From the IMG/VR virus record IMGVR_UViG_3300010149_000082, positions 1-31,048 of that record: 31,048 bases of DNA; one strand, written 5' to 3'. The translations under genes were made by a program, and so were the position numbers. Below are positions 16,396 to 31,048 of this stretch, in pieces. The stretch comes from a virus. Under the pieces are notes generated by a model. The model saw only the letters and a program-made list of their open reading frames with translations. It was not told where the DNA came from and ran no database searches. The first letter of the stretch is position 1, and every line of letters starts with the position of its first letter.

Positions 16396-16717
16396 TCGCA
16401 AGTGGACGGATATGAAGAATATCGCTCAGGAAGACATAGTTAGCCTGATCGAATCAGAAAAATCTTACGGCGATTCGTGGAAGCGTCGAGGCGGTACGGG
16501 AGCGTTTATGATGTTGGCCCGTAAGTTCGACAGGATCGAACAGCAGGCCGAGCATTGTAATTACGATGTGTTCGAAGCAGGGCTAAAGTTCGACGGCGAG
16601 GATGGACTACTCGACGATATCGGAGACCTCAGACGGTATTTATTTTTAGTTGAGCAACATATTCGTTCGCTAGAATCAGGAGGACTCATAGATGCAGATA
16701 CCACTGATCCAGCCTGA
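16385..16717 (+). CDS. Nmad1/DUF1599-like small phage protein
   Basis: The internal ATG at 16385 is chosen because GGAG lies about 9 bases upstream; a longer frame opening at 16283 would run deep inside the preceding gene. The 110-residue product carries SYGDSWKRRGGTGAFMMLAR, KFDRIEQQAEH and a terminal DLRRYLFLVEQHI. This fits, from memory, the phage family called nucleotide modification associated domain 1 (DUF1599). Its biochemical role is unproven. It overlaps the thymidylate synthase homologue by 11 bases and the polymerase gene by 26, so it is co-translated with both. Confidence 0.65.
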   Translation: MGLDRKWTDMKNIAQEDIVSLIESEKSYGDSWKRRGGTGAFMMLARKFDRIEQQAEHCNYDVFEAGLKFDGEDGLLDDIGDLRRYLFLVEQHIRSLESGGLIDADTTDPA

Positions 16718-18554
16718 AAGCGATTGGATAGCTCCGCAAGTTCTACCTAAGTTCGACCCACACGAAACGCTCGCGGTCGATTTAGAAACTTACGACCCCA
16801 ACTTGATAAACCGTGGTCCAGGATGGGCAACGGGTGACGGCTACGTTGTCGGGATCGCTATCGCATCAGATTCATGGTCAGGGTATTTACCGATACGGCA
16901 CGAAAACGGTGGCAACTTAGAGGAAGAAGTTGTCCTACGCTGGCTCAAAAGAACCTTTGAAAATCATAAAGGTACGATGGTTTTCCATAACGCACTTTAT
17001 GATGTTGGCTGGCTAAAACGTGAAGGTGTGGAGCTAACTTGCAGGCTACGCGATACGATGTTTGCAGCGCCATTGTTAGATGAAAACCGCCGGTCATACT
17101 CGCTAAACAACTTAGGTAAAGATTTACTAGCTGAGGAAAAAGACGAAACGCTACTCGAGATGGCAGCGAAAGCGTGGGGCGTAAACGCAAAGAGCGGCAT
17201 GTGGTCGCTCCCAGCGAAGTATGTGGGGCCGTATGCGGAACAGGACGCAGTCCTAACGCTACGCCTGTGGAAGACGCTAGGGAAGCGTATAGAGGCCGAG
17301 GGGCTACAGAAGATATTCGACCTAGAGTGCGACCTTATACCGCTGCTGATCGAGATGCGATGGCGCGGCGTTCGGATCGACACGGCCCGAGCAGAACAAG
17401 CCTCGGAGCAAATGTCTAAGAAAGAACAGCAACTACTCGTAGAAATTAAGAGACGGTTCGGTATCAACGTAGATATTTGGGCGAGCGCGTCAATACAAAA
17501 AGCGTTCGACGCCAATGACTTATGGTATCCACACACTGAGAAAGGTGCACCTAGTTTCCAAGGCCCGTGGTTAGAAGCTCACGACCACGACCTTCCGAAG
17601 ATGATCGTCGAAGCTCGACGTATCAATAAAGCTCGGACTACGTTTATCGAAGGAGCGATCTTAGAATATTCGCACCACGGTCGGATACATGCCGAAGCGC
17701 ACCCGCTAAAGAATGACGGCGGCGGTACAGTAACAGGGCGGTTTAGTTACTCGAACCCAAACCTTCAGCAAGTTCCTGCGAGAGACCCAGAGATCGGTAA
17801 GCTGATTCGATCGCTCTTTATCCCCGAAGAAGGAGCAACGTGGGGAGTATTCGATTACTCTCAACAAGAGCCTCGGATTACCGTACATTATTCGTCGTTA
17901 CTTGGACTCGAAGGAGCAGCTGACGCTGTAAACGCATACTCTAACGAAGGCGCTGACTTTCACCAGATCGTAGCGGATATGGCTGGTATCCCCCGCAAAC
18001 AAGCTAAGAATATCAACCTTGGTCTAACGTATGGGATGGGCCGCGAAAAGCTCATTAAAGAACTAGGACTAGAGTCAGACGAAGCTGGGAAACTACTCGA
18101 CCTGTACCATAGTCGTGTTCCTTTTATTCGAGGCATACAAAACATGTGTACTCGGATGGCAGAGCAGCGAGGCTATATAACAACGCTCGGTGGTCGTAAA
18201 TGCCATTTCGATTTGTGGGAGCCGGTCGGATATCTACACGGTGAAAAACATGCGCCGTTACCCAGACAAGAAGCGGTAGATAAGCATGGCGATAATCTCA
18301 AGCGGTCGTTTACATATAAAGCACTAAACAAGCTGATCCAAGGATCGGCTGCGGATATGACGAAACTCGCTATGAGAGATTTGTGGAAAGAAGGATTAGT
18401 CCCACATATCGGTATACATGACGAACTCGATTATTCGATCTTTAATAAAGAACAATCAGACATGGTGATCGATCGAATGGTCAACTGCGTCGATTTAAAA
18501 GTTCCACTAGTAGTGGATTACGAAACCGGAATAAATTGGGGTGAAGCTAAATGA
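16692..18554 (+). CDS. polA-like: Family A (Pol I-type) DNA polymerase with 3'-5' exonuclease
   Basis: AGGAGG sits 8 bases before this ATG. The 620-residue product has proofreading motifs ExoI VDLETYD (D30, E32), ExoII FHNALYD (98-104) and ExoIII YAEQD (181-185). The polymerase motifs are motif A DYSQQEPR (388-395, D388), motif B RKQAKNINLGLTYG (435-448) and motif C HDE (576-578). No 5'-3' exonuclease domain is present, as is usual for phage replicative Pol A. The residue at the E. coli Phe762 position is Leu443, a known variant in aquatic phage polymerases. Motif A has Gln and Pro at the Ile709 and Leu711 positions. It should be the main replicative polymerase. Its stop overlaps the next start as ATGA. 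Confidence 0.97.
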   Translation: MQIPLIQPESDWIAPQVLPKFDPHETLAVDLETYDPNLINRGPGWATGDGYVVGIAIASDSWSGYLPIRHENGGNLEEEVVLRWLKRTFENHKGTMVFHNALYDVGWLKREGVELTCRLRDTMFAAPLLDENRRSYSLNNLGKDLLAEEKDETLLEMAAKAWGVNAKSGMWSLPAKYVGPYAEQDAVLTLRLWKTLGKRIEAEGLQKIFDLECDLIPLLIEMRWRGVRIDTARAEQASEQMSKKEQQLLVEIKRRFGINVDIWASASIQKAFDANDLWYPHTEKGAPSFQGPWLEAHDHDLPKMIVEARRINKARTTFIEGAILEYSHHGRIHAEAHPLKNDGGGTVTGRFSYSNPNLQQVPARDPEIGKLIRSLFIPEEGATWGVFDYSQQEPRITVHYSSLLGLEGAADAVNAYSNEGADFHQIVADMAGIPRKQAKNINLGLTYGMGREKLIKELGLESDEAGKLLDLYHSRVPFIRGIQNMCTRMAEQRGYITTLGGRKCHFDLWEPVGYLHGEKHAPLPRQEAVDKHGDNLKRSFTYKALNKLIQGSAADMTKLAMRDLWKEGLVPHIGIHDELDYSIFNKEQSDMVIDRMVNCVDLKVPLVVDYETGINWGEAK

Positions 18555-25706: not shown

Positions 25707-25731
25707 AAGCCCGCCTCGAGCGGGCTTTTTT
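25707..25731 (+). terminator. Intrinsic terminator closing the replication/accessory module
   Basis: AGCCCGC (25708-25714), loop CTCGA, GCGGGCT (25720-25726), followed by a run of Ts to 25731. The stem is perfect and GC-rich. It lies 19 bases after the last gene of the module. Confidence 0.92.
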
Positions 25732-26034
25732 GTGCCTATTAGAACGACCCGAGATATTGCGTATATTGTCTATTTAGAAAAAAAACTTTTTTTATTTTTT
25801 TCAACTAAAACGACTAATAAAGTAATAGAAGTAATAGAAAAGTGAAAGAAGCCTCTAGATACAAGGGATGGGGGCCGTGATGAGTGTGACGAGAAAGTAA
25901 TAGAAATCGTATAGGTTATTGAAACGAGAACAGTGAATAGTGGTGAGAGGCCATGAGGGAAATTTTTACTTTTTATAAATTATTTTATTTTCTAAGATAT
26001 AGTTCTACACGCTTACGACCCTCGGAAACACTGC
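25732..26034. other. AT-rich intergenic region with GTAATAGAA repeats upstream of terS
   Basis: This is a non-coding stretch of about 300 bases. It holds tandem GTAATAGAA copies at 25822-25830 and 25831-25839, a third at 25897-25905, and a TTTTTATAAAT...TATTTTATTTT...AGATATAG block at 25970-26002. Both elements also occur in the 7741-8050 region, the 9-mer there in reverse orientation. No copy of the phage promoter is visible here, so the terS promoter is unidentified. Confidence 0.6.
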
Positions 26035-26619
26035 ATGAAAGAACTACAGTACACTCCCCTGACACCTGCTGATGACGGAAACGGGTACATCGACGCCGAT
26101 GGTAAGAGATGGCAACCGCTAAATCCGAAACAAAAGAAGTTCGCTCGAGAGTATCTGAAAGGCCAAAACGCTACCGAAGCAGCGGTAAAAGCAGGCTATA
26201 CGAAGAATCGAGCCGCAGCTAAACGACAAGGCAGCGTCTTACTCAACCACAACCCACTTTTGCGAAATTACCTTATAGACCAGGAAATCAAGGAGGCAGA
26301 GAGGGATAGGGTTTCCATGGAGGGCCACCTCTCCGCCCTCCACGACTTGCGTGAGGAGGCACGGGAGTCGGGGCAGATTAACGCAGCGATCACGGCAGAG
26401 ATACACCGAGGGAAGGTCGGAGGGCTTTACATCGATCGACGCGAGGTACTGACCGCGAAGATCGACATGCTCTCTAAAGATCAGCTGATCGATCGACTCG
26501 GAGCACTGATCACGAAGCGCGTACCGCAAACGATCGAGGGAGAGATTACGAATCGGCTCGGATCGACAGACGGATCGACGGATCGATCGACTGTATTAAT
26601 TGAGCGAGGGAGCGATTGA
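26035..26619 (+). CDS. terS: Terminase small subunit
   Basis: The 194-residue product carries the Terminase_2-type DNA-binding block: LNPKQKKFAREYLKGQNATE and AAVKAGYTKNRAAAKRQGSV, then LLNHNPLLRNYLIDQEIKEA, an HTH region that recognises the packaging site. A helical oligomerisation region follows, and the C-terminal 30 residues are Ser/Thr/Asp-rich (LGSTDGSTDRST) because the gene end lies inside the GATC-repeat tract. No clear ribosome binding site precedes the ATG. It is separated from the large subunit gene by about 3.7 kb, which is unusual. Packaging recognition near its own gene is typical of the family. Confidence 0.88.
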   Translation: MKELQYTPLTPADDGNGYIDADGKRWQPLNPKQKKFAREYLKGQNATEAAVKAGYTKNRAAAKRQGSVLLNHNPLLRNYLIDQEIKEAERDRVSMEGHLSALHDLREEARESGQINAAITAEIHRGKVGGLYIDRREVLTAKIDMLSKDQLIDRLGALITKRVPQTIEGEITNRLGSTDGSTDRSTVLIERGSD

Positions 26620-26671
26620 CCCACCCACCCACCACGTTTGATCGATCGACGGATCGATCGATCGATCGATC
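26434..26671. repeat. GATC-dense tract across the terS 3' end
   Basis: I count 18 GATC sites in 238 bases, including five tandem copies at 26652-26671 and doublets at 26487, 26581 and 26640. One GATC per 256 bases is expected by chance. The left part lies in the terS coding end and the right part is non-coding. Confidence 0.9.
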
Positions 26672-26761
26672 GACTATAAAAAGATTGACGGAGCGCGAGC
26701 GCACCCACCCACCCACCACGATTCATTGACGGCGAGCGAAAGACGGATTGAGCGATTGACC
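26610..26761. repeat. Direct repeats with C-rich (G-quadruplex-prone) units after terS
   Basis: GAGCGATTGACC occurs at 26610-26621 and again at 26750-26761. The 17-mer CCCACCCACCCACCACG occurs at 26620-26636 and 26704-26720, and a near copy lies at 27376-27391. The complementary strand reads GGTGGGTGGGTGGG, suited to a G-quadruplex. This non-coding tract is a candidate packaging (pac/cos) region. Confidence 0.8.
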
Positions 26762-26775
26762 GAAAGCGTTGGTCA

Positions 26776-26802
26776 TAAAAAAGGGAGCCGAGTGGCTCCC
26801 TT
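26776..26802 (-). terminator. Intrinsic terminator for the minus-strand gene
   Basis: On the minus strand it reads GGGAGCC, loop ACTC, GGCTCCC, then a run of Ts (the complement of the A-run at 26777-26782). The perfect stem is 9 bp counting the flanking A-T pairs. It lies 18 bases beyond the stop of the minus-strand gene. Confidence 0.9.
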
Positions 26803-26811
26803 CGTGGGTAG

Positions 26812-26834
26812 GGATCCTTCTATTCGAAGGATCC
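26812..26834 (-). promoter_or_regulatory. Perfect hairpin straddling a stop codon
   Basis: GGATCCTTC, loop TATTC, GAAGGATCC: a perfect 9-bp stem. The stop codon of the minus-strand gene (26820-26822) falls at the stem-loop junction. Together with the terminator it gives the transcript two stacked 3' hairpins. A role in 3' stability or translation termination is an inference. Confidence 0.7.
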
Positions 26835-27152
26835 TAGTTTGACGATACCGGTCTGACCTTTCCACTCTTTGCGACCTTCGATCTGCATTTTGTAGTGAGT
26901 CATGACGACCGCCGCGTCCTGCTGGTATCCCCAGTCGGATAGCGCGTCGACGATATCTTGAATCGCGACCATTCGGTGCGCGTCTCCGGCCAGCGCGTAA
27001 TACGCGGTGATGATCTTGATCATCTGCTTGGGGAGTCGCACGCCAGACGGAACGCTGTCGAACATTACTGATCCGCTGGTGGACTTACCAGTGCCGACCA
27101 TAGTGGGAAGCTCCATTGGAGCTGCTGCTTGCTTTGTAGCTGAGTTAGCCAT
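26820..27152 (-). CDS. Monocistronic minus-strand phage protein (110 aa)
   Basis: The product has a low-complexity N-terminus (MANSATKQAAAPMELPTMVG), then a compact helical domain (MIKIITAYYALAGDAHRMVA, VDALSDWGYQQDAAVVMTHY), ending VKLGSFE. No family is recognised. GTGKST at about residues 20-25 resembles a Walker A loop but lacks the surrounding fold. It is alone on this strand, with a copy of the phage -35 element about 85 bases upstream, TTAGAAAG and AAAGG boxes in its leader, and a strong terminator. That suggests independent, probably high, expression with the early genes while lying among late genes. Confidence 0.72.
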   Translation of the reverse strand: MANSATKQAAAPMELPTMVGTGKSTSGSVMFDSVPSGVRLPKQMIKIITAYYALAGDAHRMVAIQDIVDALSDWGYQQDAAVVMTHYKMQIEGRKEWKGQTGIVKLGSFE

Positions 27153-27241: not shown

Positions 27242-27562
27242 GCGAAAACGACCTACTAATTTGCTATATAGCCACGCTTGCTTATAACCTTTCCGCGCTA
27301 ACGGTTCGGTTTAGGGGCGCGACTTAGCGGATCCGTCTGAGAGACCCCCCATACCCCCAAAAATGCCGCAAGGCACCCGCCCACCCACCACTACCTAGTT
27401 CCCGCCTCTTTTTCCGAGATACTTTTGCTTTAGGTTCCCTATTCAAAAATTTCGCACATTTATATTTTTCGATGGGTCAAAATTTTTCGCGAAAATTTTT
27501 TAGGGGTAGCGAGAGTAGTGATTAGGGAGTTACGATTCGGCTATCTTTGATGAGGATACGTT
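27242..27562. other. Non-coding region between divergent genes
   Basis: With the P8 leader this makes a gap of about 410 bases. It contains the third C-rich near copy (27376-27391), an AT-rich stretch from about 27440, and the 12-base palindrome TTTTCGCGAAAA (27484-27495). It should hold the promoter for the late plus-strand genes starting at 27563, but I see no copy of the TTTACT/TAAAGT element here, so late genes may use another type of promoter. Confidence 0.5.
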
Positions 27563-29775: not shown

Positions 29776-30368
29776 GCTTTATTGCAGCTGCAATTATAGG
29801 GGCGACAGCGACGGCTGCGGCTACGGCGTATTCTGCTCGTCAAGCCCGTAAAGCACAAAGAAAAGCTGAAGAAAACGCTCAAACTCGTGCGTTAATTGAA
29901 GGGTCCGCCCCGAATATCGCGATGGTTAAAGAAGTTGTTCCTGAAGAAGTACAGGGTAGCGACGTTTCTGGATTAGAAGAAGCGTTAAAAGCGATGGATT
30001 ACGAAGGAGGTCAGCCTCCGGTTCCAGGAGAAGACGACGCTATGGGCGCAATGCCTATGGAGCTATCTGAAGAAGATTTAGCGATGCTAATAGAATCAGG
30101 TGGTTTAGAAAGTGTATTTACTCAGATGGCCGCCGACGGTGGGCCGGTAGGTACACCGAACGACGTATATTATTTTGGCGTTCCGCAAATTATGGGGATG
30201 ATGCAAGACCCCGACCCACAAATCCAGCAAGTAGGTATGCAACTTGCGGATCAAATGGAAATGACTCCCGATGCGGGGATGGTGCCAGCTACGCAACAAC
30301 AAATACAAACGATGGCTAACGGTGGCCGAATATCTTCTGAAAGGTTAAACCAAGAAAGACTCCGTTGA
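29772..30368 (+). CDS. Putative virion protein with N-terminal hydrophobic helix
   Basis: The 198-residue product opens with a hydrophobic Ala-rich helix (MSFIAAAIIGATATAAATAY, residues 1-20), followed by a basic ARQARKAQRK segment, an acidic middle and GG motifs (MAADGGPVGTP, MANGGRISSERL). This layout is common in small phage proteins next to terminase. GGAG lies before the ATG. The hydrophobic helix could be a membrane anchor or a virion packing helix. Function is unknown. The stop is overlapped by the TTG start of the terminase gene. Confidence 0.62.
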   Translation: MSFIAAAIIGATATAAATAYSARQARKAQRKAEENAQTRALIEGSAPNIAMVKEVVPEEVQGSDVSGLEEALKAMDYEGGQPPVPGEDDAMGAMPMELSEEDLAMLIESGGLESVFTQMAADGGPVGTPNDVYYFGVPQIMGMMQDPDPQIQQVGMQLADQMEMTPDAGMVPATQQQIQTMANGGRISSERLNQERLR

Positions 30369-31048
30369 CCACCCCACTTGAACAGCTAAAGGAAGTAGAC
30401 CTTTCCCATCTATCGAAAGAAGAAGCGAAAGAGTTTACTCTTCTCCTAGAGGAATTAGAAAAGCGCGAAAAACGCGAAAGTTCTATGGCGTCGTTTTACG
30501 ATTTTGTTAAAACGATTTGGCCAGAGTTTATTGCGGGTGCGCACCACAAAAAGATGGCCGAGGCATTCGATAAAATCGCCAGCGGAGAATCAAAGCGCCT
30601 CATAATCAATATGCCGCCGCGACATACGAAGTCTGAATTTGCTTCGTATTTGTTCCCAGCTTACTTATTAGGTAAGCGTCCTAAATTAAAAATCATTGAA
30701 GCTACGCACACAGCTGACCTTGCGGTTAACTTTGGCCGTAGGGTTCGTGACTTAATTGAAAGCGAAGAATATGCGGAGATATTTCCAGCTACCGAACTAA
30801 AAGCTGACTCGCGAAGCGCGGGTAAATGGAATACATCGCAGGGCGGTCAGTATTATGCGGCGGGTATTGGTGGTGCACTCGCGGGTCGTGGTGCTGATTT
30901 GTTTATTATTGACGATCCGCACTCTGAGCAGGACGCATTTTCGGATAAGGCGTTAGAAGAAGCCTACGAATGGTATCAAACTGGGCCTCGTCAGCGTCTA
31001 CAGCCAGGAGGTGCGATCGTTATCGTAATGACTCGTTGGTCTAAAAAG
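30365..31048 (+). CDS. terL: Terminase large subunit, N-terminal ATPase part (runs off the window)
   Basis: The frame is open to the window end (228 codons). The ATPase signatures are the adenine/Walker A-like loop NMPPRHTKSE at residues 82-91, Walker B LFIIDDP at 179-185, and the coupling motif MTRWS at 222-226. This is the packaging motor; the nuclease domain lies beyond the window. I take the TTG at 30365, overlapping the previous stop as TTGA, because the conserved-looking helical N-terminus extends upstream of the first ATG at 30485. An ATG start at 30485 would give a shorter form. Confidence 0.93.
   Translation, partial: MTTPLEQLKEVDLSHLSKEEAKEFTLLLEELEKREKRESSMASFYDFVKTIWPEFIAGAHHKKMAEAFDKIASGESKRLIINMPPRHTKSEFASYLFPAYLLGKRPKLKIIEATHTADLAVNFGRRVRDLIESEEYAEIFPATELKADSRSAGKWNTSQGGQYYAAGIGGALAGRGADLFIIDDPHSEQDAFSDKALEEAYEWYQTGPRQRLQPGGAIVIVMTRWSKK

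Follow-up and report, generated by a model that had tools for sequence, protein, structure and literature searches.

What does a dense cluster of GATC tetranucleotides at the end of a terminase small subunit gene (terS) do for a phage? The question is raised by a 31,048-base virus record, analysed here over its full length (hereafter the window). Its initial annotation described 18 GATC sites in 238 bases that run from the end of terS into non-coding DNA, and an exact listing of the sites confirms this: 18 GATC start within positions 26434–26671 (from 26434 to 26668), including an uninterrupted (GATC)5 at 26652–26671. The tract begins at terS codon 134 and ends 52 nt past the terS stop.

The relatives of this phage form a group with a circular map of ~58 kb and a gene order of replication genes, terS, a few-kilobase region with small genes, terL, a portal-like gene, and head genes. 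The phage is of a marine type, and its nearest isolates by DNA polymerase are 023Pt_psg01, DSL-LC04, HTVC027P, and HTVC023P (48–52% identity). A DNA-level search of isolated phages gave no match, and a search of bacterial genomes for the host returned only distant TerS fragments and no close relative. The relatives assemble as a ~58 kb circle with scattered contig ends, several of which lie near one repeat-rich region; intracellular DNA also gives circles, and HTVC023P-type genomes have been circularised by terminal overlaps (PMC9599517). The elements of the window on which the analysis bears are as follows.

26035–26619, + strand: terS, terminase small subunit, 194 amino acids (PF03592, E 2.2e-14; phrog_51, E 4.6e-18)
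26434, 26460, 26491 (region 26434–26497), + strand: conserved coding boxes GATCGAC, with GATC in 16–19 of 20 divergent terS
from 26487, + strand: GATCGATCGAC, spanning the third coding box
26532–26538, + strand: further coding box GATCGAG, with GATC in 17 of 20 divergent terS
26561, 26573, 26585 (26561–26591), + strand: GATCGAC boxes in the terS tail, an 8/12-bp tandem repeat
26619–26636, + strand: C-tract copy 1, ACCCACCCACCCACCACG, at the terS stop (G-rich on the − strand)
26640–26673, + strand: non-coding tetranucleotide array with (GATC)5 (TRF period 4, 8.5 copies)
26684–26763, + strand: degenerate continuation of the 4-bp array (GACG, GAGC, GATT, GACC, GAAA)
26703–26720, + strand: C-tract copy 2, ACCCACCCACCCACCACG
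26820–27152, − strand: accessory gene flanked by C-tract copies 2 and 3, without a family match
27375–27392, + strand: C-tract copy 3, a variant of ACCCACCCACCCACCACG, beyond the accessory gene
30365–31048, + strand: 5′ part of terL, the large terminase gene (ATG at 30485, frame open to the window end)

TerS scores 54.7 bits against Terminase_2 (PF03592), well above the curated cut-off of 26.1, and belongs to this family. Its profile matches with solved structures are the SF6 small terminase (3zqp/4zc3/2cmp) and that of Pam5 (21di). The AlphaFold pLDDT is about 90 for residues 11–80 and under 50 for residues 169–194; the protein is thus predicted to carry N-terminal helices typical of a helix-turn-helix domain and a disordered C-terminal tail, the part encoded by the repeats. 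The terL of the window is the same protein as an open reading frame of relative G002 (39721–41118) that matches Terminase_6C (PF17289, E 2.9e-13). Upstream of terS lie a terminator-like hairpin (25707–25727) and an AT-rich, non-coding stretch of 300 nt (25740–26030) with three copies of (A/G)AAGTAATAGAA. An Rfam search of the region found no known structured RNA, a sigma-70 promoter search of it found none, and the − strand of 26600–26760 holds no stable hairpin (z 0.23).

The cluster is far denser than base composition allows. The whole window contains 179 GATC compared to 113 (sd 10) in dinucleotide shuffles, and in 300 Markov genomes simulated with the same dinucleotide make-up no 238-nt stretch held more than 7. 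Outside 26380–26800, GATC occurs 160 times with 163 expected from trinucleotides, so that within the window only the 26434–26671 tract is unusual. This agreement led us to reject GATC avoidance, or restriction pressure, as an explanation, and it leaves no sign of selection by GATC-specific nucleases, an exposure to which had been suggested in the initial annotation.

A search with TerS returned 72 contigs (81–100% identity in the best segment), and every one of them that extends far enough has the GATC-rich terS end. Nowhere is GATC denser in the window, or in each of nine long relatives, than at this terS end, which in the latter holds 9 to 17 GATC versus no more than 7 in the second-densest stretch. 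Being common to the relatives and the densest stretch of the long ones, the cluster is real and maintained. An assembly artefact, which could be suspected because contig ends are about four times enriched at the tract (12 of 50 downstream ends fall into the bin 400–800 nt from the terS start, the other bins holding 1–7), is excluded as its cause, since dozens of contigs assembled independently, from different samples, contain the same tract. Enrichment of contig ends is expected at repeats and makes exact copy numbers uncertain. One related contig, IMGVR_UViG_3300037962_000140 (L098–L102, G007), extends over 81.9 kb, beyond a 58-kb circle, and holds two diverged copies (about 65–75% identical) of part of the structural region; two strains have probably been joined in a chimera, or two genomes lie in tandem.

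The cluster has two layers, one in the conserved part of terS (codons 117–177) and one in the terS tail together with the DNA that follows it. Within terS, permutation of the synonymous codons of the gene gives 5.7 ± 1.7 GATC in its last 80 codons compared to the 12 seen, which bears out the earlier statement that the cluster is not simply codon bias. We then summed the sites over codons 117–177 of 20 terS with pairwise identities below 95%, with the expectation derived from the protein and the window codon usage. GATC was found 163 times versus 50.7 expected (3.2 times), GATCGA 91 versus 10.7, and GATCGAC 57 versus 4.5; these counts are not independent, as the 20 genes share ancestry. The z value is 3 or more in 19 of the 20, and for each of the three words this 61-codon stretch stands out furthest among 347 coding windows in this genome. 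The 5′ two thirds of terS display no such excess (GATC without a following GA, 11 versus 48.5 expected), and GATC outside the GATCGA context is enriched 1.8-fold in the terS body. The initial annotation was therefore right about the density of GATC, but the over-represented unit is longer (GATCGA, GATCGAC) and strand-specific: over all relatives, GATCGAC occurs 217 times on the + (coding) strand and never on the − strand.

Codon choice at the boxes is equally skewed. Arginine at motif positions is encoded by CGA in 40 of 41 cases as opposed to 79 of 255 elsewhere in terS (p 4e-17), and aspartate by GAT in 37 of 40 as opposed to 77 of 194 (p 3e-10). Among the 20 divergent terS, the GATC sites at 26434 and 26460 are each conserved in 19, that at 26491 in 18, that at 26532 in 17, and that at 26487 in 16. 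As far as sequence comparison can tell, the GATCGAC excess is evidence of a DNA-level constraint inside terS. The boxes thin out in a sister clade (2 GATC in the terS body of L271/L279), and none was seen in the more distant relatives examined. A search of all viral contigs for three spaced GATCGAC returned mostly unrelated high-GC or repetitive coding matches, so this triplet alone does not diagnose the element. One unrelated contig (L230, 2040–2470) carries a long coding repeat rich in GATCGAC.

The second layer comprises the terS tail and the array that follows it. A 4-base period runs through the last terS codons and the next ~140 nt (lag-4 identity of 0.53–0.64 versus 0.25 on average), with a lag-4 autocorrelation of 0.59–0.64 at 26601–26760, and the highest lag-4 values of each genome tested fall at the terS tail or array. 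GATCGAC recurs within the array of the window, at 26644 and 26668. The array unit drifts (GATC, GACG, GACA, GACC, GAGC, CAGC), the terS tail is 7–21 codons long across relatives, and the comparison of repeat length that the initial annotation had proposed shows that the non-coding GATC run varies from 2 to 5 copies among close relatives. Of 69 relatives, 22 lack GATC altogether in the 220 nt past the terS stop, usually with the 4-bp periodicity kept, and in the sister clade, which has a shorter TerS, (TACTC)n replaces the array. This layer behaves as a microsatellite and lends no support to a GATC-specific role.

The C-tracts are a further component of the locus. CCNCCCNCCCNCC was found three times in the window with 0.01 expected, and all of 10 records examined carry 2–3 copies, on the + strand only and only from −19 to +1026 relative to the terS stop; most relatives have one copy at +670 to +1026. 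In the window, the first two C-tracts lie at or just past the terS stop, and the third, ~0.75 kb beyond them, precedes the conserved upstream region of the next gene. The complement of the C-tract is of a kind known to form G-quadruplexes. The GATCGAC boxes, the array, and the C-tracts share one strand, the one reading toward terL.

For the accessory gene that separates C-tract copies 2 and 3, a distant homologue was found in L009 (5952–6350, + strand, 27% identity, E 3e-12). As this homologue is on the opposite strand in a close relative, the accessory slot has been either inverted or refilled. In L060 the slot holds a different-looking gene. A repeated element, approximately CTAACNGTTNNNTTAAGGGGCGC, is present in up to six copies on both sides of the accessory gene (L063, 5681–5843 and 6609–6696; L009, 6361–6459). 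In places it contains TTAGGTT, reported as a weak preference of SF6 TerS (PMC4737164).

More distant phages carry other repeats in the same place. 023Pt_psg01 has an inverted terS and five copies of GGGCCCACCC in its terS–terL interval, all reading toward terL, with none in the rest of the 40 kb read; they are accompanied by an (AGCG)n-like array, which some 20 related contigs conserve. In HTVC027P, 7-bp arrays occupy 16502–16635 and 17394–17430. At 97 nt past terS, HTVC023P carries a 33-bp repeat in approximately three copies, the top-scoring tandem repeat of its first 50 kb. The most repeat-dense 400-nt segment lies within the terS–terL interval in 8 of 12 genomes; the interval ranks second in DSL-LC04, 023Pt, and G011, and falls outside the top three in G004. 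HTVC023P, HTVC027P, and 023Pt_psg01 thus share with the window genome-unique directional repeats between terS and terL, but their units (33, 7, or 4 bp, plus GGGCCCACCC) contain no GATC, and two of them have an inverted terS. At the level of these comparisons, the place of the repeats is conserved and their sequence is not. HTVC023P-type phages with inverted terS keep an (AGCG/AAGC)n array and a G-tract, apparently inside a small open frame (L122, 15334–15500; in L311–L340, about 540 nt before terS).

Considering (i) the position of the cluster at terS, (ii) its direction toward terL, (iii) its repeats, (iv) the relationship of TerS to those of SF6 and SPP1, and (v) published pac sites, we lean toward the cluster being the core of a packaging-initiation (pac) region. 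A packaging signal beside terS was among the initial proposals and is the one that best accommodates a repeat cluster which is conserved and directional and has analogues in isolated relatives. TerS, a relative of the SF6/SPP1 small terminases, would assemble on the repeated DNA, TerL would make the first cut nearby, and packaging would proceed in headful mode toward terL and the head genes. The GATCGAC boxes within terS would be the constrained part, and the adjacent array, made of GATC, GACG, TACTC, AGCG, or longer units depending on the lineage, would be prone to slippage, so that its unit and length change from lineage to lineage but some repeat always persists there. The abundance of GATC would then follow from the GATCGAC box and from one of the states that the array can take, and would not be a methylation mark.

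Known pac sites offer partial parallels. The strand-specific repeats have the asymmetry and the location, in or beside terS, of a headful pac site of the P22/SPP1 type, with their role as the site being putative. In P22, pac lies inside terS (PMC9611059) and is likewise asymmetric, but it is a single 22-bp site, whereas the window has many boxes. SPP1 pac holds direct repeats (PMC4737164), and here too several sets of direct repeats lie beside the gene of an SF6-related TerS. SPP1 pac, however, spans promoters and the terS start, whereas the repeats of the window are found at the terS 3′ end and beyond, and the sequences of the SPP1/SF6 pac and the window repeats are unrelated. Furthermore, the DNA-binding domain of SF6, taken in isolation, does not recognise the repeat boxes of the SF6 pac (PMC4737164), and repeats near a terminase gene thus need not be contact sites. 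As a counterpoint to the pac interpretation, the repeats could also persist as an origin, by recombination, or by slippage.

The closest parallel in terms of GATC is P1, in which pac lies inside pacA with repeated GATC hexamers: a 161-bp stretch has seven TGATC(A/G) boxes under Dam control (PMC10028697). If packaging of the window phage were gated in the same way, the host Dam would methylate the cluster and only methylated sites would be cut. In the window, too, boxes with GATC recur over about 160 bp of the small-terminase gene, and the 1.8-fold enrichment of GATC outside GATCGA in the terS body is in line with such a scheme. The box is, however, GATCGAC and not TGATC(A/G); this unit is non-palindromic and confined to one strand, and the GATC of the array is dispensable, being lost after terS in the 22 relatives mentioned above and replaced by (TACTC)n in sister phages. 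None of 12 phage records matched the methylase families MethyltransfD12, Dam, and N6_N4_Mtase (PF02086, PF05869, PF01555), but most of these records are incomplete, which makes this absence weak evidence; candidates for PF01555 did not score. We therefore consider methylation-gated packaging very unlikely. Dam/SeqA-type control, which would combine a conserved palindromic GATC with a methylase, was rejected as a lead on the same grounds, judged on phage records only. A role for host methylation is possible. GATC is also clustered in the E. coli oriC, and the GATC or GATCGAC repeats and C-tracts may be sites bound by an initiator at a replication origin or elsewhere. Their directionality and the AT-rich stretch upstream of terS would fit such a function, which we regard as improbable because the cumulative GC skew climbs steadily across the region and shows no switch, no initiator gene was identified nearby, and the repeats track the terS–terL interval even where terS is inverted (023Pt_psg01).

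It is also conceivable, if rather doubtful, that the cluster is mostly a neutral microsatellite, in which slippage after terS has spread into a disordered protein tail and the position is tolerated but not selected. The changes in array unit and length even between close relatives, and the variable length and predicted disorder of the tail, are what such a process would leave. It does not account for the irregularly spaced excess in the conserved, non-tandem part of terS, for genome-unique directional C-tracts in every one of the records examined for them, or for the repeats that other genera, with unrelated sequences, have at the corresponding place.

The pac interpretation can be taken one step further. 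Tentatively, the pac position, 3′ of terS and before terL, may be fixed while the repeats are replaced time and again, with TerS recognising repetition or DNA shape over a fixed word. This reading covers units of 4, 5, 7, and 33 bp as well as C-tracts that might form G-quadruplexes; if it is true, pac sites could diversify by simple slippage. The region is probably a variant of pac in which the place stays fixed and the repeat units turn over to an unusual degree.

The isolated small terminases of SF6 and P22 show weak binding to their own pac DNA or no preference for its sequence (PMC9611059, PMC4737164), which leaves pac recognition by small terminases unsettled. The locus also cautions against taking GATC clusters as Dam control by default. 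It gives an uncultured phage group a candidate packaging start from contigs alone, and its relatives, in which the same terminase family meets different repeats at the same place, provide a natural series in which to ask whether small terminases recognise repetition, DNA shape, or a word.
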